From positions 62,001 to 126,000 of the forward strand of contig CACYHR010000005.1 of NCBI GenBank assembly GCA_902774265.1: a DNA stretch of 64,000 nt. The letters run 5' to 3'. The position numbers and the translations under genes are program-made. This DNA comes from an uncultured Eubacteriales bacterium. Its GTDB lineage: Bacteria; Bacillota; Clostridia; Peptostreptococcales; Anaerovoracaceae. The notes beneath the pieces are model-generated. The model searched no databases. It saw only the letters and a list, made by a program, of their open reading frames with translations, and was not told where the DNA came from. This document shows positions 804 to 32,165 of this stretch, one piece after another. Each line of letters begins with the position of its first letter. Within the stretch, counting starts at the first letter, position 1.

Positions 804-3617
804 TTATTTGCGGCCTGTTATGCCGAATGCGCTGAGGTCATACCATGCCGGAATGATCTTTGGCATTACCTCATCTGGATCTGCCTCTTCGCAGAGTATG
901 CTCGATCCGAGATAGAGGTTGTTGTTTGAGTATCCTGCGCCTATGATGGTCTCGACAGGGAGCTCAGCCCACGGATCATCAACGCTTGATTTGAGCTTGA
1001 AGTCCTCTACGAATGCAGGGATCCATCCTTCATACTCGTATTTGCAAAGCACCTTGGTAAGAGCTGTGTTGAACTTTGATCCGCCGTTCTCATCAGGCAT
1101 CTGATCAAAGTGGAAATAGTATCCGAAGCCCTGAGTCTCTTTGCCGGCAGAAGGTGCCTGGAAGATCAGGTGAGTCATCGGATGGTTATACTCACCGAGT
1201 CTCAGTTTCATGTCGATCATCTGTGTGCCTCTTCTGGATACGTTTACGCAGACTTTGCCATTCTCGTCATCCTTTCTGATAACGAATTCGGCATCGACCT
1301 TTTTAGGAATCGAGAGCACATCGCGACCGAGAGCTGTAGCCATTTCGGCACCCTGTCCTCCGAGAACGAGACTGATGCAATAGAGTCCGAGCTGTCCCTT
1401 ATATGTAGCATATACGCCGAGTATCGATTCGTAGTAATTATCAGCAAATGTAGGCTCGTTGATATGATTTGCCGAAACATAAACGAGCGGCAGTGCGTAT
1501 GGCTCGAGCGGAGCAGGCAGTATCCTTCTGATCGCCTCAGGAGTAGTAGCATAGAGCATGTACACGCCTTCCTGCTTCTTCATGGCGCAGTCCTTTGCGA
1601 ATGCAGCCATCTTTTCAGGGGAGGTTACGAAGCTCGGCTTTGGAGCCTTGAAGAGCTCGGCGCCTACATCATAGCCTGTCCTTGTAGCAGGTCCCATCGT
1701 TCCGTCCTGTATAGCGGATCCGACCAGTTTTACGCAGATGCCTTTTTCTTCGAGTGCAGCCTTGAGGCTCTGATCAGGTTTGTATCCGAGCGACATTACT
1801 ACAGCATCGCATGCAACTTTCTTCTGCTCGCCTGTCTCTACATTCTCTATGCAGACGCCGTCAGCCTCGACAGCCTTTAGAGCGTTTTTGAACTCAAAAG
1901 AGATATCCATTTGCTTTACTCTGCTCATTACGTCCAGGACGTTTGCGATGTATGCAGTAGGAGCAGGGCGGTCAACCATGTCGACTACGGTTACCTTGAT
2001 GCCTTTTTCGCCGAGGAACTCAGCGGCTTCAAGACCTGTAAGGCCGGCGCCTATCATGGCGACGTGCTTGCCTGTGAAATCGACCTTGCCTGTAAGAGCA
2101 TCTTCTACAGTAAAGACATTGGCACCGTCAGCGCCCGGAATGCTCTTTGGAACGATGCTCTTTGAACCTGTAGCAAGCACTACTGCGTCAGGTCCCATAG
2201 CGGCGATTTCATCAGCGCTGACTTCTTTGCCGAGCTGTACATCGACGCCGAGTCTGGCTAGTTCTTTGCCCATATAGTCGATGAAATTCTGCATTCTTTC
2301 CTTGAGAGGAGGCAGCTTGGCGAGATTGATCGTGCCGCCGAGTTCTTCCTGGCGGTCAACGAGAGTGACCTTAACGCCTCTTTCCGCCAGAGTCCTTGCA
2401 GCGTACATTCCTCCCGGACCTCCGCCGACAACGACAGCCTTCTTATCATCTGTGACAGGCTCGAGGTCGCCTAGCTTGAGCTCTCTTCCCATGCGGGGAT
2501 TTACAGCGCACTGGAAAGGCTGAAGCTGGGCATTTATAGTCAGCAGTGTTTCGAAGCAGCGCAGGCAGTTGATGCATTTGTTGAGTTCATCGATGCGGCC
2601 TTCCTGTACCTTTACGCCCCATTCAGGCTCTGCCAGCCAGGTTCTTCCGAATTCCGCATAATCATAAACGCCTTCCTCCATGAACTGCGCAGCGATCTCA
2701 GGACTCCTGATAGCCGAAACAGCCATTACAGGGATATTGACAGCATCCTTGACTGCCTGGATCATAGGTCTTCTCCAGCCCTCATGGAATGATGTAGGCT
2801 CGATAGCCCAGTTGAGTGTCTCGTAGATACCGCAGCTGACGTCGATGAAATCGATGCCGACCTCTTCAAAGTATTTTACGATCTTTACGCCTTCATCGAG
2901 ATCGATGAAAGGTTCTGTGACTCCGTTGTGCGCAAGCATTTCGTCAACGGAGAGTCTGATGCCGACAACATAGTCAGGACCGCATTTCTCGCGGATCTTA
3001 TCGATGATATCCTTCACGAAACGCATCCTGTTCTCAAAGCTGCCGCCGTACTCATCTGTACGGAAATTGGTATAAGGCGAGAGGAACTGCTCGAGCAGGT
3101 AGCCGTGAGCGCAGTGGAGTTCGATACCGTCTATGCCGGCTTTCTTACATCTTACGGCGCCGTCGCTGAACTGTTCGATCAGCTCAAGAACTTCGTCATG
3201 TGTAAGAGCTCTGGTCGGCTGCTGAGAATAAAGGCATACTCTGTCAGAAGCGGATACACATGGCTGTCCTCCGATCAGTCTCGATACGCCCTCTCTGCCA
3301 GGGTGGTGCAGCTGAATAAATACCTTTGAGCCGTGCTTATGTATAGCGGCGGCGAGTTTTGCAAGGCCTGCGATATGGCGGTCCTTAGTTACCGAAAGCT
3401 GTCTGAACGAGCCTGCGCCTGTCGCATCGTTTACACGGCAGATCTCAGGCATTATCAGTCCGCAGCCGCCCTTTGCTCTCTCTTCATAATAAGCGATCAT
3501 GGCATCCCCGCAGGAACCGTCAAGCTCTGCGAGGTTGCTGCCCATAGGTGACATGACGAGCCTGTTCTTAAGCTCGACATTGCCGATCTTTCCCTTTTGG
3601 AATAATATATCGTACAT
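804..3617 (-). CDS. Fusion of Old Yellow Enzyme/Fe-S/FAD enoate reductase with a C-terminal acetoacetate-decarboxylase-like domain (copy 1)
   Basis: 937 residues. Residues 1-340 are an FMN-binding OYE barrel with the HCAHGYLL motif (His168, His171). Cys348, Cys351, Cys354 and Cys370 fit the 4Fe-4S site of 2-enoate reductases. Residues 393-650 carry two dinucleotide folds (GGGPGG at 398, GAGLTG at 523). Usual family members, including BaiCD/BaiH and 2,4-dienoyl-CoA reductase, end near residue 650-670. Here about 255 further residues form an ADC-superfamily domain (GRD...PKK, Lys772/773 as Schiff-base candidates, Glu730). NAD(P)H-dependent reduction of an activated C=C is expected; the ADC domain may decarboxylate a beta-keto acid or do aldol/dehydratase chemistry. 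The start follows AGGAGG. It is 63 bases downstream of an SDR gene. Substrate unknown. Confidence 0.85.
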   Translation of the reverse strand: MYDILFQKGKIGNVELKNRLVMSPMGSNLAELDGSCGDAMIAYYEERAKGGCGLIMPEICRVNDATGAGSFRQLSVTKDRHIAGLAKLAAAIHKHGSKVFIQLHHPGREGVSRLIGGQPCVSASDRVCLYSQQPTRALTHDEVLELIEQFSDGAVRCKKAGIDGIELHCAHGYLLEQFLSPYTNFRTDEYGGSFENRMRFVKDIIDKIREKCGPDYVVGIRLSVDEMLAHNGVTEPFIDLDEGVKIVKYFEEVGIDFIDVSCGIYETLNWAIEPTSFHEGWRRPMIQAVKDAVNIPVMAVSAIRSPEIAAQFMEEGVYDYAEFGRTWLAEPEWGVKVQEGRIDELNKCINCLRCFETLLTINAQLQPFQCAVNPRMGRELKLGDLEPVTDDKKAVVVGGGPGGMYAARTLAERGVKVTLVDRQEELGGTINLAKLPPLKERMQNFIDYMGKELARLGVDVQLGKEVSADEIAAMGPDAVVLATGSKSIVPKSIPGADGANVFTVEDALTGKVDFTGKHVAMIGAGLTGLEAAEFLGEKGIKVTVVDMVDRPAPTAYIANVLDVMSRVKQMDISFEFKNALKAVEADGVCIENVETGEQKKVACDAVVMSLGYKPDQSLKAALEEKGICVKLVGSAIQDGTMGPATRTGYDVGAELFKAPKPSFVTSPEKMAAFAKDCAMKKQEGVYMLYATTPEAIRRILPAPLEPYALPLVYVSANHINEPTFADNYYESILGVYATYKGQLGLYCISLVLGGQGAEMATALGRDVLSIPKKVDAEFVIRKDDENGKVCVNVSRRGTQMIDMKLRLGEYNHPMTHLIFQAPSAGKETQGFGYYFHFDQMPDENGGSKFNTALTKVLCKYEYEGWIPAFVEDFKLKSSVDDPWAELPVETIIGAGYSNNNLYLGSSILCEEADPDEVMPKIIPAWYDLSAFGITGRK

Positions 3618-3680
3618 TGCTTTTCCTCCTGAAATATTTAATGGGTCATGGATGTTTATGGCTCAAAAAGCCTGCAGAAA

Positions 3681-4550
3681 CTACTGCTGTTTGATATTGT
3701 GGTCGATGGCTACAGCTTCCGGATTCTTTCTTGCAAGCATGTTCTCGCAGCGAAGCTGTATGTACTTGTCATAATGCTCGTGAGTGATGATGTAGAGCTG
3801 ATCGTCTTCTATAGCCTTAAATACTACCGGTCCGGCCTCGTCAATAGGACGTCCTGTCTTGATCAGGTACTGAGCCGCGCCCTGCATAGCCTTGTGGATC
3901 GGGCTGCCGTAATATGCATCCTCGACTGTGTATTTGTCCTGCTTGTATTCCTCGGAATGATCGAGGTGTGTCTGGATGAAACCCGGGCAGTATGCGCTCA
4001 TGTGGATGTCAGCGCCTGCTTCGATAAGGTCAAAGTATACAGACTCTGTCAGAGCGAGCGCTCCGAACTTGGATGCCTGATAAGCAGCTGCACTCTTGGA
4101 TGTGAAGGTGCCGGCTGCCGAGCAGGTGTTGACTATGTTGCAGTGGGTACCCTGCTTCATCATTACAGGAATAACCTCATGCATGAAATAAATGTGTGAT
4201 TTGAGGTTGGTGTCGATGATCCATTCATATTCAAGAGGCGGAACAGCCCATACAGGACCGAAGGTAGCGACTCCGGCGTTGTTCATCAGAAGATCGATCT
4301 GGCCGAACTCCTCCAGAACTTTGGATACTACACATTTCACCTGATCGTATTCGGTCACATCGCAAGGGAAGAGCAGTATCTTTTCTGCGCCCAGTTCCTC
4401 AGCGAGAGGTGCGATCTCATTCAGAGCGTCCTCCATGATGTCTACTGCTGCGATCTTCATGCCGCGCTGCGCAGCCTGCTTGACGAATTCCTTACCGAAA
4501 CCATGAGCAGCACCTGTGATAAGTGCGACTCTGCCTGCAAAATCTTTCAT
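3681..4550 (-). CDS. Short-chain dehydrogenase/reductase paired with OYE-ADC copy 1
   Basis: 289 residues, classical SDR. It has the TGAAHGFG cofactor motif near the N-terminus, NNAG at about residue 90, a catalytic Ser in NTCSAAG and the YQASK motif supplying Tyr and Lys. The acidic residue after the second strand (AVDIMED) suggests NAD(H) preference. The start follows AAGGAGG. It is the first gene of a two-gene unit with the OYE-ADC gene, so it probably interconverts the alcohol and ketone of the same substrate. Its N-terminal half resembles the second SDR domain of the fused protein at 9535 (shared QAAQR, VDIMED). Substrate not predictable. Confidence 0.88.
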   Translation of the reverse strand: MKDFAGRVALITGAAHGFGKEFVKQAAQRGMKIAAVDIMEDALNEIAPLAEELGAEKILLFPCDVTEYDQVKCVVSKVLEEFGQIDLLMNNAGVATFGPVWAVPPLEYEWIIDTNLKSHIYFMHEVIPVMMKQGTHCNIVNTCSAAGTFTSKSAAAYQASKFGALALTESVYFDLIEAGADIHMSAYCPGFIQTHLDHSEEYKQDKYTVEDAYYGSPIHKAMQGAAQYLIKTGRPIDEAGPVVFKAIEDDQLYIITHEHYDKYIQLRCENMLARKNPEAVAIDHNIKQQ

Positions 4551-4632
4551 CGTTTTACCTCCTTAAAAGCGTGAGCCGGCCGGCGAGCGACCGGCTGTCA
4601 AAAATAGACATATTTACTGACAATATACAGAC

Positions 4633-4667
4633 ATAAAAATATCCTGATCCAATTATCGAATCAGGAT
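4633..4667 (-). terminator. Terminator of the PucR-family regulator gene
   Basis: On the minus strand a hairpin (TATCCTGAT / ATCAGGATA) is followed by a run of five T. It lies between the regulator's stop and the SDR gene, so the SDR/OYE pair needs its own promoter within 4551-4632. Confidence 0.7.
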
Positions 4668-4751
4668 AAAAACTTAACAATATACAGTATTACAAAACAA
4701 CAGAGATCATTTGGCAAGAGTGCACAAAAGGGATGATCTGCAGGATTTCAG

Positions 4752-6284
4752 CTACAGTTTGTCGCTGAAATCTTTTCCGGCCCATTTGCGCTTTTGGTTG
4801 ATCACGTTGCTTATGGCATATGAGAGCCTGAGGCGGAACCTTGTATCGGTATCGCCGAGATCTATATCGCACAGCTCCTCTACGCGGCGCAGTCTGTAAA
4901 TCACACTGTTTCTGTGCAAAAACAGCGCTTTTGCCGTATCTGTAGTGTTGCACGAGTACTTGAGGTATGTATGAAGCGTGATCTCTAGGTTTGTGTTGTT
5001 ATCCGCATCATAGGCTGCGAGCTTAGGCAGAGCAGGGTGAAGGTATCTGCTCAGATCCTCTCTGTCAGCCACTGTGCGGAACATTACATAAATGCCGTAA
5101 TCCTCAAACGTGAATATGCTGTTCTCAGGGTCAAGCTGCAATCCGATCTCAAAGGCATCGACAGCCTCCTGAAAGTGAGAGCGCAGGGTCGAGATATCAT
5201 GGAAAGGCAGACTGACGCCTATCCGGGTACGGCATTTTTCCGGAAAGAGGGCAAGTATCTGTCCTGCTTTGCGTATGATCTCGCTGCTGCCGATTATAGC
5301 TGCGTTGTCTCTCTGAGAAATCACATGGCAGCCAGGCATGATATTTGTCATTTCCTCTGACAGATCGCCTTCGCGCGGAAAGACCGAGCTGTCACCGCTT
5401 GCTTTGCAGTAGAGCACCTGCAGCTCCGAAGGGAAGCTCAGCTGTGTATAAGCCTCCGGAAGAGATGAGACATCGGCTCCGATTATCAGATTGTAGAGGA
5501 AGCGGTGATAGTCGCTTGTCAGATAGAGAAATCCCGGCGCGTATTTCATAACGGCGTAGCCTACAACGCCGCTCAGTATCCTGAGCATTTCGACATGCTC
5601 GGGCCTGTATGAGTCATAGCCTTCTATCACTATAAGAAAGCCTATCCAGATGTCCCGGCAGTAGACGCGGCTCGCGAATTTCTGGAAAGGGGATGAAGGG
5701 CATGAGACCTCCAGCGGTGTCGTGGTCGAATCGGCCATCTGTACTGATTTGAGAGATTTGACGGCTTTGATGAACTCGTAGTCGCAGTAGCCCTGCTCAA
5801 TATTGTGCATCCAGAGCTTGTCGGTCACAGGGATCTGCTCCGAATTGCTGAGTATCCTGAACTCACGGTCGATGAACACGAGCGAAGCACCGAATTTCTG
5901 CGACGCAAGATCGATAAGAGCATCGACATTTCTGACGCGGTCAAGAGACTTCATCATCGATTCATATAAACCGCCCTTGTGCGAATCTATTACCATTTGC
6001 GATGCGCTGTTGAATGCCAGACCGAAATCGCTGTCAGACACAAGCGCAGTGCTGAGACCTGTGAGATCCTTGCCGCTCAGATCTACCGATTCGGTAAGTA
6101 TGCACTGCGACGGCAGATACTGGCTCTCCAGCAGTCTGTTGCTGAAATACAAAACATTGGGACTGTAGCCGGAGCGCCCTGAGTCCATAAAGCGCACCTC
6201 GGTGATCTCGGCGTCTGTACCTTCGGAAATCACGGAGACCTTGCATATACTGCTCAGCTTCTCGATAAATTCGCGAAAAATCAT
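4752..6284 (-). CDS. PucR/CdaR-type transcriptional regulator
   Basis: 510 residues. The C-terminal 60-70 residues contain the PucR helix-turn-helix (TDTAKALFLHRNSVIYRLRR), typical of regulators of purine, sugar-acid or aromatic catabolism that sense a pathway metabolite. The N-terminal and central parts look like GAF-like and GGDEF-like sensory modules without catalytic motifs. The start follows AGAGG. It sits between two divergent redox units (minus-strand SDR plus OYE-ADC; plus-strand OYE-ADC plus tandem SDR), which makes it the obvious regulator of both. Its promoter carries a perfect palindrome, suggesting autoregulation. Ligand unknown. Confidence 0.85.
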   Translation of the reverse strand: MIFREFIEKLSSICKVSVISEGTDAEITEVRFMDSGRSGYSPNVLYFSNRLLESQYLPSQCILTESVDLSGKDLTGLSTALVSDSDFGLAFNSASQMVIDSHKGGLYESMMKSLDRVRNVDALIDLASQKFGASLVFIDREFRILSNSEQIPVTDKLWMHNIEQGYCDYEFIKAVKSLKSVQMADSTTTPLEVSCPSSPFQKFASRVYCRDIWIGFLIVIEGYDSYRPEHVEMLRILSGVVGYAVMKYAPGFLYLTSDYHRFLYNLIIGADVSSLPEAYTQLSFPSELQVLYCKASGDSSVFPREGDLSEEMTNIMPGCHVISQRDNAAIIGSSEIIRKAGQILALFPEKCRTRIGVSLPFHDISTLRSHFQEAVDAFEIGLQLDPENSIFTFEDYGIYVMFRTVADREDLSRYLHPALPKLAAYDADNNTNLEITLHTYLKYSCNTTDTAKALFLHRNSVIYRLRRVEELCDIDLGDTDTRFRLRLSYAISNVINQKRKWAGKDFSDKL

Positions 6285-6314
6285 AATAAATACCTCTGCA
6301 TATATAATGTAGAA

Positions 6315-6326
6315 AATGTATACATT
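6315..6326. promoter_or_regulatory. Palindromic operator candidate AATGTATACATT
   Basis: A perfect 12-base palindrome immediately downstream of the -10 of the pucR-type promoter, covering the likely transcription start. The position suits autorepression. Which protein binds is inference. Confidence 0.45.
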
Positions 6327-6327
6327 C

Positions 6328-6356
6328 AGAATAGGTCAATGTGCACAAAATGTCAA
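6328..6356 (-). promoter_or_regulatory. Sigma-70 type promoter of the PucR-family gene
   Basis: Minus strand: TTGACA (6351-6356), 17-base spacer, TATTCT (6328-6333), about 45 bases upstream of the start codon. The -35 overlaps a TGCACAAAATGTC motif (6342-6354) that recurs as TGCACAAATGTC at 6444-6455 on the other side of the divergent spacer, so both may be binding sites for one regulator. Confidence 0.6.
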
Positions 6357-6562
6357 TTGAAATTATGCATAAATGCCGAAAAGCGAAATACTCTGGTTAT
6401 CATCATGGCTGCGTTCAGTGCACTGCTACTGTTTAGTACATACTGCACAAATGTCCGCGCTTGTTTTGGATATTTGTGATAATGCGGCATGAGTTCGACA
6501 AAAATATAATTAAGTCAGATAAAAATATAGCAAACGTATCTCATTGATGGAAAGGAGACACC

Positions 6563-9379
6563 ATGTACGAAAAGCTATTTGAAAAGGGTAGGATCGGCAA
6601 TGTCGAACTCAAGAACAGACTTGTCATGACACCTATGGGTACTAATCTGGCCAACCTCGACGGAACACCAGGCCCTGCTATGATCAGATATTATGAAGAC
6701 AGAGCGGCAGGCGGCTGCGGACTGATCATGCCTGAGATCTGCAGAGTCAACGAGGCGACAGGTGCGGGAATGATGAGACAGCTCGCTGCTACCAAGGATT
6801 ACCACATCCAGGGTATCGCAGAGCTGGCAATGGCAGTTCACAAGCACGGATCCAAGATATTCATCCAGCTGCATCACCCGGGCAGAGAAGGCGTATCTTC
6901 ACTGATAGGCGGACAGCCTTGTGTTTCCGCTTCGGACAGAGTATGTAAGGTTTCACAGCAGGAAACAAGACCTATGACCATCGATGAGATCCACGAGCTC
7001 GTAGGTCAGTTCGGTGACGCTGCTCTGAGATGCAAGAAGGCCGGCGTTGACGGTATCGAGCTCCACTGCGCTCATGGCTATCTGCTGCAGCAGTTCCTCT
7101 CGCCTTATACCAACTACAGAGAAGACGAATACGGCGGAAGCTTTGAGAACAGAATGAGAATAGTTCTCGAGATCATCGCTGACATCCGTGAGAAGTGCGG
7201 TCCTGATTTTGTTCTCGGCTGCAGAGTATCCGTTGTTGAGTTCCTCGACAAGCTCGGATACGAAGGCGACCAGATCAGACTTGAGGATGGTATAAAGATC
7301 GTAAAATGCCTCGAAGAAGCAGGCATCGATTTCATCGACGTATCCGATGGTCTCTATGAGACCGGAAGCTTCTCGGTAGAGCCTATCTCCTTCCCGCAGG
7401 GCTGGAGAAGACCTATGATCCAGGCTATCAAGGACGTAGTAAATATCCCTGTTATCGCAGTATCCGTTATCCGCGAGCCTCAGGTCGCAGAGACATTCCT
7501 CGAAGAGGGAGTTGTTGATTTCGTAGGCATGGGCAGAACATGGATCGCAGACGCTGAATGGGGCAAAAAGGTACAGGAAGGCAGAGAGGATGAGCTCAAC
7601 AAGTGTATCGCTTGTCTGAGATGCTTCGAATCGCTGCTCGGACTCAACGCTCAGGGACTGCCTTTCGAATGTGCAGTAAATCCTCGCGCATGCAACGAGC
7701 TTCGCTACGGGGACCTCGAGCCTGTAACAGGTTGCCACAAGGCTGTAGTAGTCGGCGGCGGCCCTGGCGGAATGTATGCAGCTGCTACACTGGCTAAGAG
7801 AGGCGTTGATGTAACACTTCTCGACCGTCAGGAGGAGCTCGGCGGAACAGTAAATCTGGCTAAGAAACCGCCTCGGAAGGAAAGGATGCAGTGGTTCATC
7901 GATTACCTCAAACAGGATATGGAGAAGGCCGGCGTAAAGGTCTGCCTCGGATGCGAAGCTACAGCTGACGATATCGCAGCTATGGAGCCTGAAGCAGTAG
8001 TTCTCGCTACAGGTTCGACATCTATCTTCCCATCGAAGATCCCTGGCGTAAACGGTGACAATGTATTCGCTGTAAACGACGTACTCAACGGCAAGGTCGA
8101 TCTCTCCAATAAAAAGGTCGCTATGATCGGTGCTGGACTCACAGGTCTTGAGGCCGGTGAATACCTCGCTGAGACAGGCGCGGAAGTCACATTTGTAGAC
8201 ATGCTCAAGGTCGCTGCACCTAACGCTTACAGACTGAATGTAGTAGACGTTCAGACAAGACTTGCAGCACTCGGAGCTAAATACGAGCTCGGAAACGCTC
8301 TCAAGGAGATCACTGCTGACGGAGTCGTTATTGAGAATGTAGATACAAAAGAAGAGAAAAGGGTCGAGGCTGATGCTGTAGTTCTCTCGCTCGGATACAA
8401 GCCTGATCAGAGCCTCAAGGCAGCTCTCGAGGAGAAGGGCCTCTGCGTCAAGGTGATCGGCTCCGCTGTAGTAGACGGAACTATCGCTCCTGCATCCCGC
8501 GGCGGATACGAGGTCGGCGCTTCACTGTTCAAGGAAGAGCCTCTCAGCTTCAAGATCGGCGACGGACAGTTCAAGTCCTTCTCAAAGATCTCACACATGA
8601 GAGGACAGGAAGGCACATACGTAGCTTACCTCACACAGCCTGAGGCTATCAGAGCGGTACTGCCTGAACCACTCGAGCCATTCTCGATGCCTGTAGTTAC
8701 AGTATCTGCATGCCATATCAAGAACCCTACATTCGCAGACAACTATTATGAGGCTATCCTCGGCGTATACTGCACATACAAGGGACAGCTCGGCATGTAC
8801 ACTATCTCACTTGTGCTCGGCGGACAGGGTGCAGAGATGGCTACACAGCTCGGAAGAGACAATTCGGCTATCCCTAAAAAGCTCGATGCTGAATTCGTTA
8901 TCAGAAAGGATGACGAGACCGGCAAGGTAAGCGTAGGCGTTACCAGAAGAGGCACACAGCTCATCGATCTCGAGATGCAGCTCGGTCAGTACAACCACCC
9001 TCTGATGCACGTTCTGTATCAGGCACCTGCTCCTGGCGCTGAAACAGCCGGAAGCGGATACTACATCCATTTCGACAGACTGCCGGGCGAGGACGGAATG
9101 TGGAGATTCGACAACGTATTCCTGCTTAAGAATGTCGTTAAATATAAATATGATGACTGGAAGCCGGGCTTCGTAACAAAGTTCGAGCTCAAGTCCAGCA
9201 TAGATGATCCATGGGGCTGCCTGCCGGTCAACACCATTATCGGCGGTGCATATGCCGAGAACAATCTGCTTATCACAGCTCTCGAAAAGCTTGAGGATGT
9301 GGATGCAGAGGAGACCATGAAGAAGATACTGCCTGCATGGTATGACAGGACAGCCTTCATGGAAGTCGGCAGAAAATAA
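6563..9379 (+). CDS. Fusion of Old Yellow Enzyme/Fe-S/FAD enoate reductase with an acetoacetate-decarboxylase-like domain (copy 2)
   Basis: 938 residues, alignable end to end with the product of 804-3617. Key residues keep the same numbers: HCAH at 168-171, Cys348/351/354/370, GGGPGG at 398, GAGLTG at 523, Glu730 and PKK at 771-773. The ADC-like part covers about 683-930. Copies differ in the loop around 225-240 and in the 655-682 linker, so substrates may differ. The start follows GGAAAGGAG. It is transcribed divergently from the PucR-type gene and is followed after 155 bases by the tandem SDR gene. Codon use is strongly biased, as in highly expressed genes. Expected role: reduction of an alpha,beta-unsaturated carbonyl compound coupled to ADC-like chemistry. 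Confidence 0.86.
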   Translation: MYEKLFEKGRIGNVELKNRLVMTPMGTNLANLDGTPGPAMIRYYEDRAAGGCGLIMPEICRVNEATGAGMMRQLAATKDYHIQGIAELAMAVHKHGSKIFIQLHHPGREGVSSLIGGQPCVSASDRVCKVSQQETRPMTIDEIHELVGQFGDAALRCKKAGVDGIELHCAHGYLLQQFLSPYTNYREDEYGGSFENRMRIVLEIIADIREKCGPDFVLGCRVSVVEFLDKLGYEGDQIRLEDGIKIVKCLEEAGIDFIDVSDGLYETGSFSVEPISFPQGWRRPMIQAIKDVVNIPVIAVSVIREPQVAETFLEEGVVDFVGMGRTWIADAEWGKKVQEGREDELNKCIACLRCFESLLGLNAQGLPFECAVNPRACNELRYGDLEPVTGCHKAVVVGGGPGGMYAAATLAKRGVDVTLLDRQEELGGTVNLAKKPPRKERMQWFIDYLKQDMEKAGVKVCLGCEATADDIAAMEPEAVVLATGSTSIFPSKIPGVNGDNVFAVNDVLNGKVDLSNKKVAMIGAGLTGLEAGEYLAETGAEVTFVDMLKVAAPNAYRLNVVDVQTRLAALGAKYELGNALKEITADGVVIENVDTKEEKRVEADAVVLSLGYKPDQSLKAALEEKGLCVKVIGSAVVDGTIAPASRGGYEVGASLFKEEPLSFKIGDGQFKSFSKISHMRGQEGTYVAYLTQPEAIRAVLPEPLEPFSMPVVTVSACHIKNPTFADNYYEAILGVYCTYKGQLGMYTISLVLGGQGAEMATQLGRDNSAIPKKLDAEFVIRKDDETGKVSVGVTRRGTQLIDLEMQLGQYNHPLMHVLYQAPAPGAETAGSGYYIHFDRLPGEDGMWRFDNVFLLKNVVKYKYDDWKPGFVTKFELKSSIDDPWGCLPVNTIIGGAYAENNLLITALEKLEDVDAEETMKKILPAWYDRTAFMEVGRK

Positions 9380-9534
9380 CAAAATCGCCAGACAGTTAAC
9401 AGACATGACTCAATAGCATGCATGAGTAAGCCCGGCGCAGGCCGAATGATTTTGCTACTTTTCAGTGCGGCATTGCGCCGCGGGCTTTGCTCAGCATGTC
9501 CGGTATAATAAGAATTTCATAGAAAGGGGTAAAT

Positions 9535-11325
9535 ATGAAAGACTTTAAGGGCAGAGTAGCCGTTATTACAGGAGCTGCTAACGGATTCGGTAAGGAATAT
9601 GTAAAGGAAGCTGCAAAGCGCGGCATGAAGATCGTAGCTGTGGATATAGAGGGCGATGAGGTCCTGGACTGCGAGCCGCTTGCAAGAGAGCTCGGCGCGG
9701 AGGATATCATTTGCGTACAGGCTGACGTATCCCTCTTTGAAGATACACAGAAGATTGTAAAAGCCGCAATGGATAAATTCGGTCAGATCGATCTGCTGAT
9801 CAACAATGCCGGAACAGGCAAGGGCGGTACAATAAGCAATCTGCCTCTCAGAGACTGGGAGTGGATGGTATATGCAAATCTGATGTCTCATGTTTACATG
9901 ATGAGACAGATAGTTCCTATCATGATGAAGCAGGGAACACACTGCAACATCCTCAATGTATGCTCTATCGCGGGTCTTATCACGAGCAATGCTATGCCTG
10001 GATACTATTCCACAAAGCATGCCGCTGTACAGCTCAGCCGTGCGACTCAGTACGAGCTCGAGGAGATGGGAGCAGATATCCAGGTCAGCATTTTCTGCCC
10101 GGGCTTCGTCCAGACAGATCTGCATCACGCTGAGCGCCACAGACCTGCAAGATTTTCGGACCCGACAGATCCGTATTATCAGAGTGCAGAGTTCTTCGCT
10201 TCCGAAAAAGCAAGTGAATATGTCGTAACTACAGGATTGCCTATTGACGGCTTCGGCGAGACCTGCTTCAAGGCTATCGAGGATGATCAGTTCTACATCG
10301 TTACACATCCGCAGTATGATCCTCTGATTAAAAAGCAGATCTACGACAGAGTTGACGGAAACAATCCTGACCTCAGAAATGTAGGCAAGGAGCGCAAGGA
10401 AGTCGTCAGCGGCGACAGGGATCTGACAGGAAGAGTAGCACTCATCACAGGTGCGGCATTCGGATTCGGAAAAGAGTTCGTAAAGCAGGCAGCACAGAGA
10501 AAGATGAAGATCGTTGCTGTAGACATCATGGAAGACGAACTCATGAAGATAGAGGCTGTTGCAAAGGAAAACGGTGCTGAGGACATCACACTGATCCCTG
10601 CTGATGTATCGCTTTATGAGGAAACAGAGAGAGTCGTCAAGGCCACTATGGATAAATACGGCCAGATCGATCTTCTGATGAACAATGCCGGAACATGTAC
10701 ACCGGGAGTAGGTTTCATGATCCCTCTGCAGGACTGGGAGTGGATAATCCGCACAAACTTCCTCTCGCATGTATATTTCATGAGACAGGTAGTGCCTATT
10801 ATGAAAGCTCAGGGCACACACTGCAATATAATGAACACCTGCTCGGTAGCGGGCCTGATAACAAGCACAGGCATGGCAGCATACTATACAACTAAGAATG
10901 CTGCAGTAGCACTCTCGGAATGCATCGAATACGAGATGCAGGAAGCGGGAGCAGACATCCATCTGAGCGTATTCTGCCCGGGATTCGTACGCACCCATTT
11001 CGATCATGCCGACGAATACCGTCCTGCTAGATACGCGCACGGAGATGATCCGTACTATCAGAGTGAAATGTTCGAAAAGGGCAAGCAGTCTGCTGCCTTC
11101 GTGATCGGAACAGGCTATCCTCTCGAAGGATTCGGCGAAAGAGTATTCAAGGCTGTTGAGAACGATGAGTTCTACATTGTCACACACCCTGAGTACAATG
11201 CCGCTATTAAAAAGGAGGTAGATGAGACCGTAGCAAGGACAAATCCTCTGGTAGTGACTATCACAGAAGCGATCAAGGATGTCACCAATCTGCCTGGAGG
11301 ACCGCTCAGAGGCTATCTTAAATAA
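9535..11325 (+). CDS. Tandem two-domain short-chain dehydrogenase/reductase
   Basis: 596 residues with two complete SDR domains in one chain. Domain 1 (about 1-285) has TGAANGFG, NNAG, Ser in VCSIAG and YYSTK. Domain 2 (about 298-590) has TGAAFGFG, NNAG, Ser in TCSVAG and YYTTK. Both catalytic sets look intact. Domain 2 has no start codon or ribosome site at its beginning, so this is a true fusion. Domain 2 resembles the stand-alone SDR at 3681 more closely than domain 1 does. Start follows AAAGGGG. It is probably co-transcribed with OYE-ADC copy 2, as two reductases or two stereospecificities of one pathway. Single SDRs are usually 250-300 residues. Confidence 0.88.
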   Translation: MKDFKGRVAVITGAANGFGKEYVKEAAKRGMKIVAVDIEGDEVLDCEPLARELGAEDIICVQADVSLFEDTQKIVKAAMDKFGQIDLLINNAGTGKGGTISNLPLRDWEWMVYANLMSHVYMMRQIVPIMMKQGTHCNILNVCSIAGLITSNAMPGYYSTKHAAVQLSRATQYELEEMGADIQVSIFCPGFVQTDLHHAERHRPARFSDPTDPYYQSAEFFASEKASEYVVTTGLPIDGFGETCFKAIEDDQFYIVTHPQYDPLIKKQIYDRVDGNNPDLRNVGKERKEVVSGDRDLTGRVALITGAAFGFGKEFVKQAAQRKMKIVAVDIMEDELMKIEAVAKENGAEDITLIPADVSLYEETERVVKATMDKYGQIDLLMNNAGTCTPGVGFMIPLQDWEWIIRTNFLSHVYFMRQVVPIMKAQGTHCNIMNTCSVAGLITSTGMAAYYTTKNAAVALSECIEYEMQEAGADIHLSVFCPGFVRTHFDHADEYRPARYAHGDDPYYQSEMFEKGKQSAAFVIGTGYPLEGFGERVFKAVENDEFYIVTHPEYNAAIKKEVDETVARTNPLVVTITEAIKDVTNLPGGPLRGYLK

Positions 11326-11487: not shown

Positions 11488-14400
11488 ATGAGGACAGGAA
11501 AGAGAGTAAGAAGACATCTTGCCCTGATACTGAGTGTTCTTCTGACAGTTACGGCGATACCGCAGTTCGCCGCGGCTGCAGTAACAAACAGTCAGGCTGT
11601 CAAGCTTGAGGAAGGGACATATGTGCCGGGACAGGTAATAGTGATGTTCCGGGACAATGTGATCGAAGAAAGCGATGACTCTTTAAAAAAGGTAAGATCG
11701 ATGGCTCAGATCGGCTCTGATTTCGGAGCGATGGAGGGAGCCGTAAGTGAATCCTCTGCGGCTGCGAGAATAGCGGAGTCGGAGACGGACCATGTCGATA
11801 ACAGTCTCGGCAGTGATTTTACGATAGAAGATACACTTGTCTTTCCGGCAGGATCATCCGATGCTGACGGAGGCATCGGCATAGAATCTGAGGACGATGA
11901 GGGATTCAGCGTCGCGCTGATTTCTTCTGATAAATATGATACAGAAACTATGATAGAGAAGCTGTCGAAAAACAGCAATGTTGCGGCTGCTGAACCTAAC
12001 TACAGGACTTATCTGACGGATATAGACGGATATGACAGCTATTCTCTGAACGACAAATACGCACGCTGGCTGTACCATGACAATGCGCCTGCAGCCAGAA
12101 ACAGAACGGGCGACAGCGTAGATGCGCTCGGCGCGGATCCGGATGCTGCGGTTTCTGCGAATGCGGCTTCCGGATGGAAAAAACTGAACGGCAAGGAAAA
12201 GGAAGTAGTAGTTGCAGTTGTCGATACAGGCATCAATCCGAATCACGAGGATCTCAAATACAGACTGTGGACAAATCCGGGAGACATAGGTCTTGCCGGA
12301 GAGCACGGTTACAATTTTGCTGACAATAATACTGATATCACAGACCATGCAGGTCACGGCACACACTGTGCCGGACTTATAGCAGCTCAGGCAAATAACG
12401 GCAGAGGCGTTGCGGGTGTTTCCGGCATAGGTAATGTAAAGATCATGGGTCTCTGCATCAATGCGAGCTCCACGGAAGGAAGCCTTTATGTAGCAATGGG
12501 GGCATATAATTATGTACTCAGAGCAAAGGAAAAAGGAGTCAATGTCGTTGCAACAAGCAATTCCTGGGGCAGAGGCGACACACAGAGCACTATATTCGAC
12601 GAGATAGTAAACCGGGCGAAGCCGGCATCATTTCATTCTTTGCCGCAGGAAACTCGTCAGACAACCTCGATTACAGGGTGGATAATCCGTCAGCGACCGA
12701 TTCTGACTATTCTGTAGTAGTCGGAGCGGCCGGAATAACCGGCGAACCTGCCGGATTCAGCAACTACGGCAGACAGGCCGTGGATGTGTTCGCATCCGGT
12801 GTAAACACATTATCTACAATTGGAAAAGCTGTGTATTTCCCGACGATTTATACCAGATCTGAACGCCGCGCCAATACGGAATATTATGGAGAGTTCACTA
12901 AGAACACTAAGGTAAAGAACGGAACTGTAACGCCTGACAACGACGATACACTGCTGTCTTCCGTCGATTCATTCGGCGCGATGAAATTCCACAAACAGCC
13001 ATCGTCAGATTATGCAGGTGAAGAAGGTGAAGAAACACCGTCAATCCCTGATACTGCAAGATGCGAAGTCGAGCTGTCTCAGGATCGCTATTTCAATACC
13101 GGGACTAAAGCATCTCTCAAAGTAACGATCAAAAATGCGCAGTATGGCGAAGAATACTATGTATATTTCCCATACAAAAAGAACAGAAAGACTGAAGCGG
13201 ATAATACAGCATTCTCGATCATGTATCAGAACGGCGATACATCTGACGCAGGATACGCTGATGTATACGGTGGCGAGGTCATAGAGGAAAAAGACGGAAC
13301 ATGCAGAATGACAAACTTTGGAATACATGGTCATCATATGGGGTCTGCTGAAAGAGATGTAGCTACACATCTGTCCAGCAAAATATTGACTGAAGATGAT
13401 GAACCTGATGATAATTCCTACAAAATGTGCAGTTACTCAGAGCTGGGCAGAAGCAAATGCGGAATCGGTCTTCAGATCTATCCTGCCAACGGAGTCGAAG
13501 GAACAAAGTGGGAAGAAGGACAGTCACATGATCTTGTACTGTATATAGACAGTATTGGTGTTAGCAAACCGAATGCGAAGATAGATCCGAACAGCTCTTA
13601 TGATATAATGTCAGGCACGTCGATGGCGTGTCCGTCTGCTGCAGGAGCAGGCGCTCTTATGGCGCTGCTGAATCCGAGGATGGATGGACAGTCCGGAGCA
13701 GAATATGCGACGATGATACGCAATAAGCTGTTCGAGAGCGTACATAAGACTGACGCGCTCAGCGGCCTTTGCTCGACAGGCGGATATATTGATTTCAGAT
13801 ATATGAATTCAGGACAGCCTGTTATAAACGATGCTGTCTGCAATGTGGATAAGGGAACTCTGACGATCAGGGGCAAAAACCTCAACGAAAGCGGAGTTCT
13901 GACATACCGCAAGCTGGATGAAGCGGCATCTTCCGTTGTAGAGCTTCCATCGGGCGGAATGGATCTCAGTTATTCCGCAGACGGCAGCAAGATCGTGATC
14001 AGCAACGCTAAGAGCCTTTTCGGCACTTATATTGAATTCGAAATGACATCGGAATCAGGAGAGAGCGGTAAGGGATCGTTCTTTACGGTCAAAGGTCAGA
14101 ATGAGCTGAAGATGGTCAGCAGCATTCTGTATCCGAATCCTGCGGATGATGATTATTACAACAGCCACAATATACAGCTTGCGACAAATGCATCCGGAAG
14201 CTGCCTCTACGGTGTGGAGAATGACACCGGTAAACTAATGCGCTTCAACGGCCGCGAATTTGTCGATATTCCTGGTACGCTCATCAAGGATACTGTAGTG
14301 GAAATGCTGTCGAAGGATTACGACCAGTATCAGATAGAGAATCAGTTTGAAATAAGTCCATTTCATGATCAGAATCTGCTGAATGACGGCAACATGATAT

Positions 14401-15476
14401 ATTACAGTGTAAATGTTAACTATACCCCTGAGGGAAGTGAAGAAACCGAATACAATGAATATCTGGCTTCGCTGGATCTTTCGGCGCGTTCACCTGAATG
14501 GACGCTGCACGAATACAACGTTTCGGAAATAGAAGAAGAATACACCAGTATCAGCAGATTAGCAGCTAACGGCAGGATTTACATTCTGGTCAGCACATAT
14601 GGTAAGGATTACTCTCTGTTCTACAGCTTCGATCCGGAAAGTAATGTCCTGACCAAAGAGGCCACGCTGCCTGTATTCGTACATAATGCGTATATGACTG
14701 AGTATAATGGCAGCATATATGTGATGTTCGGCGGTCTTGCTCCTGACGGAGTACACGAAAAACTCGATCAGATCTCGGAAGGAGTATACAGATTCGACGG
14801 CAGCAGCTGGAAGAGGACCGGAACTCTGCGATACGCCGGTAAGCGCGATTCGGGACTGGGATCGGATTATCCTGAGTATACCGCGGCAGCTGGCAAAGCC
14901 AGGAACGGTCTTGTAATACTGGATATGTCAGTCGATGGCGCAGGAAACTGCTCTCTGTATGATCCGGAACGCGATACGATCAGGCCGATCTACTATACTC
15001 TGAATGACAGTCATTCTGACAACACTATGTTTGACTGCCGTTCGAGTGTAGCTACGAAGAAAGGCATTTACTACCTGAGAGATTATAACGATGAGATGAG
15101 AAGAGGCTGGGCCCTGTATCTGCTGCCTGCATCGAGCGGAGAATATGAGAGCGCTTATGGTGCTGATTCCACATCTGCGGCAAAAGTCAGAAAGACAAAG
15201 GTGACTTTGAAGAGCGTCAAAGCAGGCAAGGGAAAGATGACCGTAAAATGGAAGGCTAATAAGTCTGTATTCGGCGGCTATCAGATCAAATACAGGATCA
15301 AAGGCAAGAGCTGGAATTCTGTAAGCGTCGGTAAGGCATCAGCCGCTAGCAAGGTTATAAAGAAGCTGAAAAAAGGCTGTAAATATCAGGTGAAGGTCAG
15401 AGGATACAAGGTCATCGACGGATCCAGGATATACGGCAAATTCAGCAAAACCAAAACCAGCGGAAGGATAGGATAA
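11488..15476 (+). pseudogene. Secreted S8 subtilisin-like serine protease, disrupted by one frameshift
   Basis: Starts at ATG 11488 after AGGAGG, with a signal peptide and a propeptide. The first frame holds the catalytic Asp (VVDTGIN) and His (HGTHCAG) and runs to 12717. The homologous sequence continues one frame over from about 12618 (EAGIISFFAAGNSSD with the oxyanion Asn) to 15476, including the catalytic Ser (SGTSMACPS) and a C-terminal FN3-like domain. Restoring one base near 12616 rejoins one chain of about 1,330 residues. A large insert separates Asn and Ser. It may be a real mutation, a phase-variable site or a sequencing error, because the rest is intact. A second subtilase at 20613 has similar architecture. 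Confidence 0.85.
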
Positions 15477-20577: not shown

Positions 20578-20612
20578 TTGAAAAGCATGCAGCATGAAAC
20601 GGGTTGGTTGGT

Positions 20613-23276
20613 ATGAAGAGATTGGTAAGACGATCAGTAATTATTGTAATGGCGGTGCTGATGATCCTGCAGCCGGGTTTTGGTTTGCTTTGTTTTGCAG
20701 ACGATGGTTCTGCAGCGGGCGCTTATGCGGATTTCACCGGCTTCGCAGCTGTCGAAGATATCGTTAATGATGCCGGAACTGCAGGAGTTGTCGATGCTAA
20801 CGGTAATGATGGTTTCGGAATTGACGGTAATGATGTCGGAAATTCAGTTAATGATTTTGTTAATACTGACAGTGTTGCTGACCTGAGCGATATCGATGAA
20901 GATGTTGCTGATACGGACCGGCTGCTTGTGCTGGTTGAGGAGGGCACCGGGAATAAGGAATTGAGAGCTATTGCGGATGATTCCGGGGCCGAAGTCGAGA
21001 GGGTAAGTGATTTTGAAGACGGAACCAGGCTTGCGGCAGTTCAGATTGATCCGGACAACATGCAGGAGACAGCTGAGAGTCTTGCTCAGAATGATAAAGT
21101 GCTTATTGTACAGCCAAATTATAAGTACAGGCTGGAAGACACGACTGTGGGAAGCGTCGATGCCGTTAGTTCAGATGATGTAAACAACATCAGCAGTTCT
21201 GCTGCAGCGGAGAACGGCAGCGCAGGAACTGCGATTTTGAGTAATGATCTCGAATATATATATGTCGAAGATGTCAAAGCAAACGTATACAGTTTCAGGG
21301 ACGGTACGGCATCTATAAGCAACGATAAATATCTGAAACTGCAGAGTTTCCTGACACAGCCGGATGCAAATATTTATTCCGGCAGTACTCTCAGAGGAAC
21401 GGCAGCAGGATGCGCGGATTTTGTCGGTGCGTGGAAATCGCTTAAGTCTGTGCCCGGTGTTTCCAATGGGAAGGTGAGTGTAGCTGTTATAGATACAGGA
21501 GCGCTTATAAGACATCCTGACCTCAGAGCTAATATTAATAAGGATTTATGTGTAACCTTTAATGACGGAAAGAAGGGATCTTTCACGGAATGGGACGGAT
21601 ATGAGGACGACCACGGGCACGGCACCCATGTGTGCGGACTCATTGCAGCGGAAGTGAACAACAGTCTCGGAGTTGCCGGTACCGCATACAATAGGGCAGA
21701 GGTATTCTGCATCGATGCTACAAATAAGGAAGACAACTCATTATTCACCACTCAGAATATCTGCATGTCGATCGATTATGCCGTCGAACAGGGAGCAAAA
21801 CTAATAAATCTGAGTCTTGGAGGCCTTTACAGGGATCTGCTGATGGAACGTTCTGTAAGTAACGCCTGGGACAAAGGCGTTCTCTGCATATGTGCCGCGG
21901 GGAACGAAGGATCCGATGCAGCTCAGAGTCCCGGAGATTCACCATGCGCGATCAGCGTCAAAGCAAATGACGTATACGGCAAGGCGACCGGTTCTTCCAA
22001 CTACGGCCCGGACAAGGATGTTTCGGCACCGGGAAGCGGTATGTTCAGCACCTGTCTCAAGACGACGAGGGACAGCAGCGGGAAGCTTGTCCCGGAACTG
22101 CCTCTTACGCCTACATATGAATACAAAACCGGCACTTCGATGGCGACTTCAGTCGTGACCGGCACAGCAGTTCTGCTTCTCTCAGAAGACAGCAGCCTCA
22201 CTCCGAGACAGCTCAAAAACTACATTTATACCAGCAGCGGACAGGATTCATATATGGGAATGCAGATAGAACCGGGATTCGGTATAGTCAACGCTGACAG
22301 AGCTGTGCAGAATCTCCATATGGGCAGTCAGGCAGTATCAGACATAATACTCAACAGGACATATGCCGAAGTCTGCAAGGGAGGCTCCGTCTCTCTGGAA
22401 TTTGCAGTGCTGCCTGCAGAAGCGGGAAGATCGGCAGACACGGCAGTGTACAGTTCTTCAGATGAAAGCGTTGCAAGCGTCGATCAGTACGGAATGATCA
22501 CGGGAACAGGAAAAGGTACTGCAGTGATCACCGTCAGCTGCGGAGGCAAAACCGCCGAATGCACAGTAAAAGTCCTGCCTGCGGAAGTAACGAATTTCAG
22601 CAAGAGGCCATATACAAAATCCGGATATCTAGAAGAGGATGACCAGACTGCGGTCGTGAAGGAAAATGACTGGGCTGAGTGGGAGTCATTTACTGATGTG
22701 TATCAGACAAAAATCAAATCTAAGGAGAAGCTGAAGATAGATCTGACGATGTATGGCATCGGATCTATTCCTTATCTGCAGATAACGAAAAAGGACGGTA
22801 CGGTAGTTGCCGGCAGGATATGCAGGCAGAGCGGCAGTATAAAGGATATGGCTATGTCTTATACTGCCCCGGAAGCAGGTACTTACCGGATAATGGTGCT
22901 GAACAAGCCATACAGCGGCACGGGAAATCAGAGCATCAAGTACAAGCTGACAGTCAACTCGGAGATAAGGGACCTCCCGGATGTAAGTATCAAAAAGCCG
23001 GTCAGCGGTAAGAAAGCGGTCACAGTCAGATGGGCAAAGCTCAGCAAAGCCAAGCAAAAGAAAATCTCAAAAATACAGATACAGTACAGCACTTCGGCTG
23101 CATTCACATCGGGAACCAATAAGACCGTTTATGCCAGAAACACAGCGTCGTCAAAAAAGATAAGCGGCCTCAGATCAGACAAATACTATTACATCCGCAT
23201 AAGAGGATATAAGAAAAGCAGCGGCGTAAAGCATTACTCAAAATGGTCAGAAACGAAAAAAGTCAGGACAAAATGA
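20613..23276 (+). CDS. Secreted subtilisin-like serine protease (S8) with Big2 and FN3 domains
   Basis: 887 residues from ATG 20613 (a TTG at 20604 would add three). A signal peptide is followed by an Asn/Asp-rich linker, an I9-like propeptide, then a catalytic domain with Asp (VIDTGA), His (HGHGTHVCG), oxyanion Asn (CAAGNEG) and Ser (KTGTSMATS), all intact. A Big2-type Ig fold (SSSDESVASVD), a PPC-like domain and a C-terminal FN3 domain follow. There is no LPXTG sorting signal. It probably degrades extracellular protein, feeding the amino-acid fermentation encoded downstream. Repeat copy A lies just upstream and no clear ribosome site remains, so expression may be altered. It is the intact relative of the frameshifted gene at 11488. 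Confidence 0.9.
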   Translation: MKRLVRRSVIIVMAVLMILQPGFGLLCFADDGSAAGAYADFTGFAAVEDIVNDAGTAGVVDANGNDGFGIDGNDVGNSVNDFVNTDSVADLSDIDEDVADTDRLLVLVEEGTGNKELRAIADDSGAEVERVSDFEDGTRLAAVQIDPDNMQETAESLAQNDKVLIVQPNYKYRLEDTTVGSVDAVSSDDVNNISSSAAAENGSAGTAILSNDLEYIYVEDVKANVYSFRDGTASISNDKYLKLQSFLTQPDANIYSGSTLRGTAAGCADFVGAWKSLKSVPGVSNGKVSVAVIDTGALIRHPDLRANINKDLCVTFNDGKKGSFTEWDGYEDDHGHGTHVCGLIAAEVNNSLGVAGTAYNRAEVFCIDATNKEDNSLFTTQNICMSIDYAVEQGAKLINLSLGGLYRDLLMERSVSNAWDKGVLCICAAGNEGSDAAQSPGDSPCAISVKANDVYGKATGSSNYGPDKDVSAPGSGMFSTCLKTTRDSSGKLVPELPLTPTYEYKTGTSMATSVVTGTAVLLLSEDSSLTPRQLKNYIYTSSGQDSYMGMQIEPGFGIVNADRAVQNLHMGSQAVSDIILNRTYAEVCKGGSVSLEFAVLPAEAGRSADTAVYSSSDESVASVDQYGMITGTGKGTAVITVSCGGKTAECTVKVLPAEVTNFSKRPYTKSGYLEEDDQTAVVKENDWAEWESFTDVYQTKIKSKEKLKIDLTMYGIGSIPYLQITKKDGTVVAGRICRQSGSIKDMAMSYTAPEAGTYRIMVLNKPYSGTGNQSIKYKLTVNSEIRDLPDVSIKKPVSGKKAVTVRWAKLSKAKQKKISKIQIQYSTSAAFTSGTNKTVYARNTASSKKISGLRSDKYYYIRIRGYKKSSGVKHYSKWSETKKVRTK

Positions 23277-26698: not shown

Positions 26699-26700
26699 TG

Positions 26701-27816: not shown

Positions 27817-27838
27817 ATTATGTAATGGAGGAAAAACA

Positions 27839-29083: not shown

Positions 29084-29142
29084 TAATAACAACGGTATTG
29101 GGCAGTTGATAGCTAATAACCCGAACAGGAGGAATAATACAA

Positions 29143-30150: not shown

Positions 30151-30189
30151 GATCTACGTCTGGCGCGTAAGCGGGAAGGAGACAAAACA

Positions 30190-31332: not shown

Positions 31333-31349
31333 GAAGGAGGTAAGAAACT

Positions 31350-32150
31350 ATGAAAATAATGGTAACAGTTAAGCAGGTTCCTGATACCTCCGGCAAGGTA
31401 GCAGTCAACGAAGACGGTACTCTGAACCGTGCTTCGATGCAGGCGATCATCAACCCTGATGACCTGAACGCGGTAGAGGAAGCCCTTTCACTCAAGGACG
31501 AATACGGCTGCAAGGTAGTCGCATTCACAATGGGACCTATGCAGGCAGAGCCGATGCTGAGAGAGCTGCTCGCTATGGGCGTAGACGAGACCGTGCTTAT
31601 TTCTGCAAGAGAATTCGGCGGATCCGATACATACGCTACTTCGCAGATCATCGCAGCAGCTATCGATACTTACGGAATCGATGACGACGATATCATCATC
31701 GCAGGCCGTCAGGCTATCGACGGAGATACAGCTCAGGTAGGACCGCAGATCGCAGAGAAGCTGCATCTGCCGCAGGTCACTTATGCAGGCGAAGTAAAGA
31801 AGGACGGCAACACTCTTACTATCAAGAGAATGCTCGAGGACGGATACATGACCATCAAGGTAAACACACCTTGCATGATCACCTGCATCAAGGAGCTGAA
31901 CGAGCCTAGATACATGAACGTCAGAGGAACCATCGAGTGCTGGGACAAGCCTCTCACAATCATGGATTACAACGCTCTCAAGGATCACGAGCTGATCGAT
32001 GCTACTACTATCGGTCTTAAGGGATCCCCTACAAACATCTACAAGTCATTCGCACCTCCTGTCAAGGGCGCCGGCATGATGCTGGAAGGCTCGGGCAAGG
32101 AAACTACCGACAAGCTTGCAAATATCCTTACAAGCAAGCACATCATTTAG
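31350..32150 (+). CDS. etfB: Electron transfer flavoprotein, beta subunit
   Basis: 266 residues. MKIMVTVKQVPDTS start, AGRQAIDGDTAQVGPQ signature and an AMP/FAD-binding core define EtfB. It partners EtfA and the acyl-CoA dehydrogenase encoded just upstream. Whether it bifurcates needs inspection of the second FAD site; the genetic setting makes it plausible. Start follows AAGGAGG. Confidence 0.94.
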   Translation: MKIMVTVKQVPDTSGKVAVNEDGTLNRASMQAIINPDDLNAVEEALSLKDEYGCKVVAFTMGPMQAEPMLRELLAMGVDETVLISAREFGGSDTYATSQIIAAAIDTYGIDDDDIIIAGRQAIDGDTAQVGPQIAEKLHLPQVTYAGEVKKDGNTLTIKRMLEDGYMTIKVNTPCMITCIKELNEPRYMNVRGTIECWDKPLTIMDYNALKDHELIDATTIGLKGSPTNIYKSFAPPVKGAGMMLEGSGKETTDKLANILTSKHII

Positions 32151-32165
32151 GAAGGGAGGACTGAC

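Follow-up and report, generated by a model that had tools for sequence, protein, structure and literature searches.

A conserved fusion of an Old Yellow Enzyme-type flavoenzyme with an acetoacetate decarboxylase-fold domain, and its putative PucR-type switch, in an uncultured Eubacteriales bacterium and its relatives

According to the excerpted text of PMC11574389, iron-sulphur flavoenzymes of the Old Yellow Enzyme (OYE) type reduce bile acids, bilirubin and isoflavones in gut bacteria, and the motif given there for their cluster is CX2CX3CX11-13C. The available part of PMC12238238 describes OYE-type reductases with a 3β-hydroxysteroid dehydrogenase (3β-HSDH)/isomerase domain fused to their C-terminus, an arrangement seen in 61 of 257 homologues, so that an added domain on such an enzyme has a precedent. 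Here, we describe a locus at positions 804 to 11325 of a 64,000-nucleotide stretch (the window) of contig CACYHR010000005.1 from an uncultured Eubacteriales bacterium. It encodes two OYE-type flavoenzymes that carry a third domain of the acetoacetate decarboxylase (ADC) superfamily, which sets them apart from BaiCD, BilR, daidzein reductase and the 2,4-dienoyl-CoA reductase flavoenzymes. Beside them lie short-chain dehydrogenases/reductases (SDRs) and a PucR-type regulator. With about even confidence, we read the locus as a PucR-switched catabolic or detoxifying module for a widespread carbonyl compound, probably plant- or microbe-derived, whose main enzyme is a natural bifunctional fusion. 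The observed basis of this reading consists of the domains, the conserved residues, the gene neighbourhood, unfused equivalents and a cis element.

The two fusions comprise 937 residues on the minus strand (804..3617) and 938 residues on the plus strand (6563..9379), each as one unbroken open reading frame (ORF). A sequence-only reading of the window had described them as homologous proteins with OYE, FAD/NAD and ADC parts, and all three domains indeed exceeded their Pfam cut-offs in both. For the minus and plus fusion, respectively, Oxidored_FMN (PF00724) reached 250 and 245 bits (residues 5-343 and 4-344, the latter at 6572..7594), and Pyr_redox_2 (PF07992) 113 and 105 bits (in the plus fusion residues 393-640, 7739..8482). 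An OYE barrel and an FAD/NAD(P)-binding part are thus joined on one chain, as in iron-sulphur OYE flavoenzymes. A lack of ADC similarity in the C-terminal part had been set beforehand as one outcome that would overturn the idea; with 117.6 and 122.8 bits for PF06314 at a cut-off of 29.8 (residues 665-904, 906..1625, and residues 679-912, 8597..9298), the similarity is strong and places both in the ADC superfamily fold. The paralogues are 66% identical overall, 69% in the OYE parts and 60% in the ADC parts, and the AlphaFold model of the plus-arm protein has a mean pLDDT of 85.3 and a pTM of 0.74. They are the only PF06314 matches at E 0.001 in their own genome (3.26 Mb assembly), and the closest named contig belongs to a goat-gut Mogibacterium metagenome-assembled genome (MAG), whose ADC part is 99% identical.

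The SDR partners that the sequence-only reading had described are present in both arms. On the minus strand, this is a classical SDR of 289 residues (3681..4550; PF00106, 156.8 bits; TGAAHGFG, NNAG and YQASK), while the plus-strand gene at 9535..11325 turned out to encode a tandem SDR-SDR fusion of 596 residues. Its two PF00106 stretches are 56% identical and both have the catalytic motifs, and the same length class recurs in other Mogibacterium loci. All three SDR units of the window possess TGxxxGxG, NNAG and YxxxK and are therefore classical SDRs. The regulator (4752..6284, minus strand, 510 residues) shares the C-terminal HTH_30 domain (PF13556, 72.8 bits, cut-off 27) with PucR, CdaR and AdeR. 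However, it remained well under the cut-offs of the AdeR (61 bits versus 700) and CdaR models (60 versus 612), and a putative operator, discussed below, sets it further apart from these regulators. It does lie between the two fusions, but the two arms do not mirror each other: in the minus arm the order is pucR, SDR, fusion on a single strand, and in the plus arm fusion, tandem SDR.

Residue conservation was followed in an alignment of 58 fusions with identities down to 53%. In the OYE site, H168, H171 and Y173 are invariant, so that the catalytic tyrosine and the histidine pair that we take, by analogy with YqjM, to bind the substrate are present. The tyrosine corresponds to Y166 of 1ps9, the one named in the excerpt of PMC12238238. 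C348, C351, C354 and C370 are likewise invariant and are likely iron-sulphur ligands. Their spacing (C348-X2-C351-X2-C354-X15-C370, that is CX2CX2CX15C) departs from that given for flavoenzymes of the BaiCD and BilR kind in the excerpt of PMC11574389; as all four cysteines are present, a cluster is still likely. The matches listed by the fold search cover the OYE module, residues 1-658. This also holds for 2-naphthoyl-CoA reductase (6qkg), whose match ends there, and Pfam detected no CoA ligase among the window proteins scanned beside the fusions, which were the SDRs, PucR and a dimethylarginase-like protein.

The best NCBIfam match of the fusions was the BaiCD model NF041087, and together with the published C-terminal fusion of 3β-HSDH to gut 5β-reductases (excerpt of PMC12238238) this would fit an enzyme of the BaiCD or 5β-reductase type that reduces bile acids or steroids and carries an added domain. 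Such a function, whose substrates the sequence-only reading had entertained, was considered and dropped, and we regard it as very improbable. The scores of 455.0 and 454.1 bits lie far below the cut-off of 825, and the published determinants are absent: Gly172 and Gln177 stand one position before and four after the catalytic tyrosine in both window proteins, where, in the same excerpt, steroid reductases have Asn and Ser, and bile-acid reductases mainly Tyr or Ser and Glu. With the gut 5β-reductase/3β-HSDH fusion mf2052, the window proteins have in common an OYE-type reductase and an extra C-terminal enzyme domain, which is a Rossmann dehydrogenase in mf2052 and an ADC fold here. The models for bilirubin reductase (409 and 388 bits versus 750) and the mycofactocin OYE were below their cut-offs as well. 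Carriers from outside the gut further argue against bile acids and steroids, and with them a gut-specific role found no support: records of Acetobacterium, Anaerocolumna and Ruminiclostridium, which live mostly in other habitats, also hold the fusion.

With regard to the ADC site, E730, K772 and K773 are invariant in the 58 fusions. In the alignment to the solved ADCs 3bgt, 3bh2 and 3c8w, K772 coincides with Lys115, K773 with Lys116, E730 with Glu76 and Gln682 with Arg29, where we take Lys115 to form the Schiff base and assume the customary numbering and roles for the others. The likeness is detectable over approximately 95-116 residues, and the fusion to a flavoenzyme is a further difference from these decarboxylases. 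Both lysines are kept in all stand-alone ADC genes aligned, and the glutamate in all except two haloarchaeal ones. Such conservation would be unlikely in a dead domain, which makes it improbable that the domain only binds substrate or oligomerises and delivers the substrate to the OYE site, even though ADC-fold proteins are oligomeric and an OYE-only relative (L021) has the same PucR and SDR neighbours.

Only a little below an even chance, the domain may be a true β-keto-acid decarboxylase, in which case the SDR would oxidise a β-hydroxy acid, the ADC domain would free CO2, and the OYE half would reduce an enone before or after. The invariant equivalents of Lys115, Lys116 and Glu76 agree with this, as do the sequence searches, in which ADCs were the only solved structures that the ADC part matched above chance. 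On Rhizobium pRL9, moreover, an ADC adjoins an annotated 3-hydroxybutyrate dehydrogenase in a pair that probably serves decarboxylation, and ADC and SDR occur without an adjacent OYE in four related genomes. However, the Arg29 position is Gln682 in 58 of 58 fusions, Gln in the unfused L110 and Ala in L115, L117 and L111 (the Rhizobium ADC L125 retains Arg), and its loss makes a simple acetoacetate decarboxylase doubtful; NCBIfam PRK02265 likewise reached 36 bits versus a cut-off of 150. A catalytic lysine kept while Arg29 is lost would also suit a hydratase or aldol-dehydratase that acts through a Schiff base and forms or removes the double bond reduced by the OYE half, so that both sites work on one enone. 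We consider this possible and tentative; such chemistry would go well with an ene-reductase in one polypeptide, and Sbi00515 and Swit_4259 are reportedly non-decarboxylating enzymes of the superfamily. Solved non-decarboxylating members were not encountered in the sequence searches, which speaks against it, although such searches cannot exclude likeness to them.

The fusion is found well beyond the Mogibacterium-like MAG. A contig scan yielded 74 loci, drawn from the best 80 of 104 confirmed stretches, and 63 of them encode a fused ORF of at least 880 residues, which answers the proposed survey for three-domain proteins; the scan was seeded with two peptide patterns from the ADC domain of the fusions and is thereby biased towards them. 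Among the remaining 11 loci, eight run into a contig edge at their start or end (L048, L051, L064, L066, L068, L070, L075 and L106). Only partial frames are present in L067, close to the end of its contig, and in L086, while in L063 the OYE and ADC parts form two neighbouring frames. Carriers include Mogibacterium, Baileyella, Mobilibacterium, Clostridium cadaveris, Hespellia, Robinsoniella, Lacrimispora, Lachnotalea, Anaerocolumna, Murimonas, Ruminiclostridium, Oscillibacter, Cuneatibacter, Acetobacterium, Sinanaerobacter, Olsenella and others. In the family sample (148 genomes), a full-length fusion was among the matches listed in six (G000, G076, G131, G091, G124 and G066), and the ADC profile matched in 16 of 393 genomes of the order, 12 of them with an open frame of fused length. 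In the phylum sample (398 genomes), the fusion was seen in the own genome only and an unfused relative in one other (G450), whose class (299 genomes) gave an unfused relative in two genomes and the fusion in none. Among 948 matching plasmid records, none spans 80% of the fusion; an OYE-only homologue (42% identical) stands beside a helix-turn-helix gene on the Enterococcus plasmid NZ_CP023514.1 (L119). A 1154-residue OYE-like protein is encoded directly upstream of one fusion gene (L060:4339-7803).

In the OYE tree, which was built by a quick method with some long branches flagged, the split L063 groups with the 66 fused modules in a single clade of 67 rows (SH-aLRT 97), apart from nine outside rows, which fits one fusion event. 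The window paralogues fall into separate clades in both the OYE and the ADC tree, each with orthologues in other Mogibacterium genomes. The mirrored look is thus that of an old pair, and a recent inverted duplication was ruled out. In the OYE tree, the fused clade also takes in Olsenella, a member of the Actinomycetota, a placement suggestive of transfer across phyla.

The neighbourhood is kept along with the fusion. Of the first two genes upstream of the fusion, one is a divergent PucR gene in 51 of the 60 fused loci that extend more than 2 kb in this direction. Where both flanks were available (57 loci), a co-directional SDR adjoins the fusion in 43, and PucR and SDR occur together in 42; the conservation that the sequence-only reading had proposed to check was thereby borne out. 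In L088, the automatic ORF choice missed the tandem SDR, and in the minus-arm copy L072 PucR is co-directional and lies three genes upstream. L054, L074, L076, L102 and L103 have no adjacent SDR, and in L103, from Sinanaerobacter, a zinc alcohol dehydrogenase takes its place between PucR and fusion. Judging from this exchange and from the unlike SDR groups mentioned below, the presence of an alcohol/ketone step seems to count for more than the enzyme family that performs it. The idea that the flanks contain additional pathway genes was considered and rejected, as they vary and the next commonest families after fusion, PucR and SDR occur in only 16, 9 and 8 of 76 loci. A transporter may be among the first two, which lack annotation here; the third is 3-hydroxyacyl-CoA-dehydrogenase-like, belongs to the minus arm of several Mogibacterium loci and is absent from the window. 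The scan of further local neighbours in Mogibacterium brought up DUF2201, GDPD and PLD proteins, and one protein had no Pfam match.

Elsewhere, the same parts occur as separate adjacent genes. In L115 (G450), PucR on the minus strand faces genes for an OYE (646 residues), an ADC (270 residues) and an SDR (257 residues) with gaps of 29 and 77 bp, and in L110 (G329), OYE (650 residues) and ADC (292 residues) are 14 bp apart, with a 3β-HSD/epimerase-like gene upstream of the pair. Because the gene order OYE-ADC is also the domain order, the fusion could have come from the loss of a stop between adjacent genes. Five of the 148 genomes of the family of G450 hold the L115-type ADC; in 5/5 the SDR follows and PucR faces the operon, and in 1/5 the OYE precedes. 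In the relatives of G329, its ADC was found in 1 of 61 genomes, G329 itself. A Rieske/VanA_C oxygenase-like gene lies near the unfused pair of L110 (L110:7636-8595). Three haloarchaeal plasmids (L120, L121 and L122) encode ADC homologues 28-30% identical to that of L115 beside differing sets of AMP-binding, enoyl-CoA hydratase, acyl-CoA dehydrogenase and hydantoinase/oxoprolinase (acetone-carboxylase-like) genes. No annotated OYE was present in the stretch read around these plasmid ADCs, and no ADC in that around two haloarchaeal OYE homologues. Separate genes side by side argue for one pathway, and combined with the real fusion and the kept neighbourhood they make the proposed dedicated sequence of carbonyl chemistry, C=C reduction and an alcohol/ketone step likely.

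A 37-bp element with the core TAGTGCAYNRTGCACAAAWTGTCAA recurs in the intergenic regions between pucR and the fusion. Its opposite strand has the form of a sigma-70 promoter for pucR (TTGACA-N17-TAnnCT), and the dyad GTGCA-N3-TGCAC occupies the spacer. A position weight matrix (PWM) was built from 13 regions and applied to 39 held-out ones, with 740 random 250-bp pieces of the loci as background. At least 14.9 was scored by 25 of the 39, versus a background 99th percentile of 6.8, although the count is not one of independent cases because the regions are related (L043 and L055 hold the same one). Fourteen regions scored lower, though in seven of these loci (L052, L071, L073, L078, L079, L094 and L097) an exact copy of the dyad adjoins the called pucR frame or sits just within it. 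Exact copies number 27 across the 74 loci (1.29 Mb; 1.13 expected), always beside pucR: 20 at its 5' end, six past its 3' end, where they precede the Mogibacterium minus arm, and one 143 bp into the frame called for pucR in L098. Among all 5-bp half-sites with spacers of 0-8 it ranked first, with 21 loci in the 5' zone of pucR (runner-up 7). The unfused operon L115 has it too, and the OYE-only operon L021 has a copy with one mismatch. An exact copy lies upstream of the 3-hydroxyacyl-CoA-dehydrogenase-like gene at L035:4759-5718 and its relatives.

The window copy (6327..6363) scored 32.8 as a held-out sequence. Its right half TGCACAAAATGTCAA and the promoter are intact, the left half of the dyad is degenerate, and the core of the element has no second match in the own genome when up to three mismatches are allowed. 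The predicted promoter within it (6328..6356, minus strand, TTGACA-N17-TATTCT, 10/12) is the best-scoring site between 3500 and 6700, where the total of six sites is within the shuffle range (4.8, sd 2.1). No match was found in the gap between SDR and PucR (PWM -1.1). The dyad in the pucR promoter is new here, and PucR is predicted to bind it there.

In the mechanism that we infer, in its cofactor loading, residue roles, Schiff-base chemistry, step order and substrate class as well as in the binding of PucR to its operator, the ADC-fold domain would bind a ketone or β-keto acid through a Schiff base with Lys772, next to Lys773 and Glu730. The ensuing step may be a decarboxylation or, nearly as likely given the lost Arg29, a hydration/dehydration or aldol-type reaction. 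Hydride would pass from NAD(P)H via FAD and the iron-sulphur cluster to the FMN of the N-terminal half, where a C=C bond conjugated to a carbonyl held by His168/His171 would be reduced, with Tyr173 as the likely proton donor. The SDR, or the zinc alcohol dehydrogenase in one genome, would interconvert alcohol and ketone, and PucR, acting on GTGCA-N3-TGCAC, would control itself and the divergent operon. A more specific version, in which the Schiff-base domain makes or unmasks a conjugated enone (by aldol-dehydration, dehydration or decarboxylation), the OYE half of the same chain reduces it, and the PucR-dyad switch governs a carbonyl pathway undescribed in anaerobes, we consider unlikely.

Several observations weigh against the module as read here, beginning with the departing cysteine spacing and the lost Arg29. 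The SDR is not one orthologue, as those of L091 and L115 are 52% identical to each other and only 23-32% to the window SDRs. Eight fusions have neither neighbour (L053, L057-L060 and the Olsenella-type L104, L105 and L107), so the fusion can act without PucR and SDR. Likewise, the unfused ADC relatives L111 and L112 have neither OYE nor SDR in the stretches read, and the exact dyad is absent from the plus arm of the window and from L110, L117 and L132-L134. Finally, no substrate emerged from the analysis.

Further genes of the window lie apart from this locus. Overlapping frames at 11488-12717 and 12678-15476 look subtilase-like by eye (11488-15476), perhaps with an assembly frameshift, and Pfam identified a subtilase at 20604-23276. 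The row at 25430-33278 (an HGD-D pair, a CoA-transferase III, a D-2-hydroxyacid dehydrogenase, an acyl-CoA dehydrogenase and two ETF proteins) resembles a Stickland-type operon for a reductive 2-hydroxyacyl-CoA dehydratase. The 1674-residue protein at 43793-48817, with an FHA domain and two FtsK/SpoIIIE stretches, is presumably EssC-like, which suggests a type VIIb secretion system.

The sequence-only reading knew of no described pathway with this set, and our literature search agrees in that an OYE-ADC protein was named nowhere in the results found. A conserved branch of the OYE-type iron-sulphur flavoenzymes that has a second active site, of the Schiff-base type, a regulator of its own and a recognisable putative operator marks out a pathway accessible to direct tests in cultured strains such as Baileyella intestinalis, Robinsoniella peoriensis and Acetobacterium. 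The unfused operon offers separate enzymes for assigning each step, and the regulator with its putative operator provides the basis for an inducer screen that could reveal the substrate.

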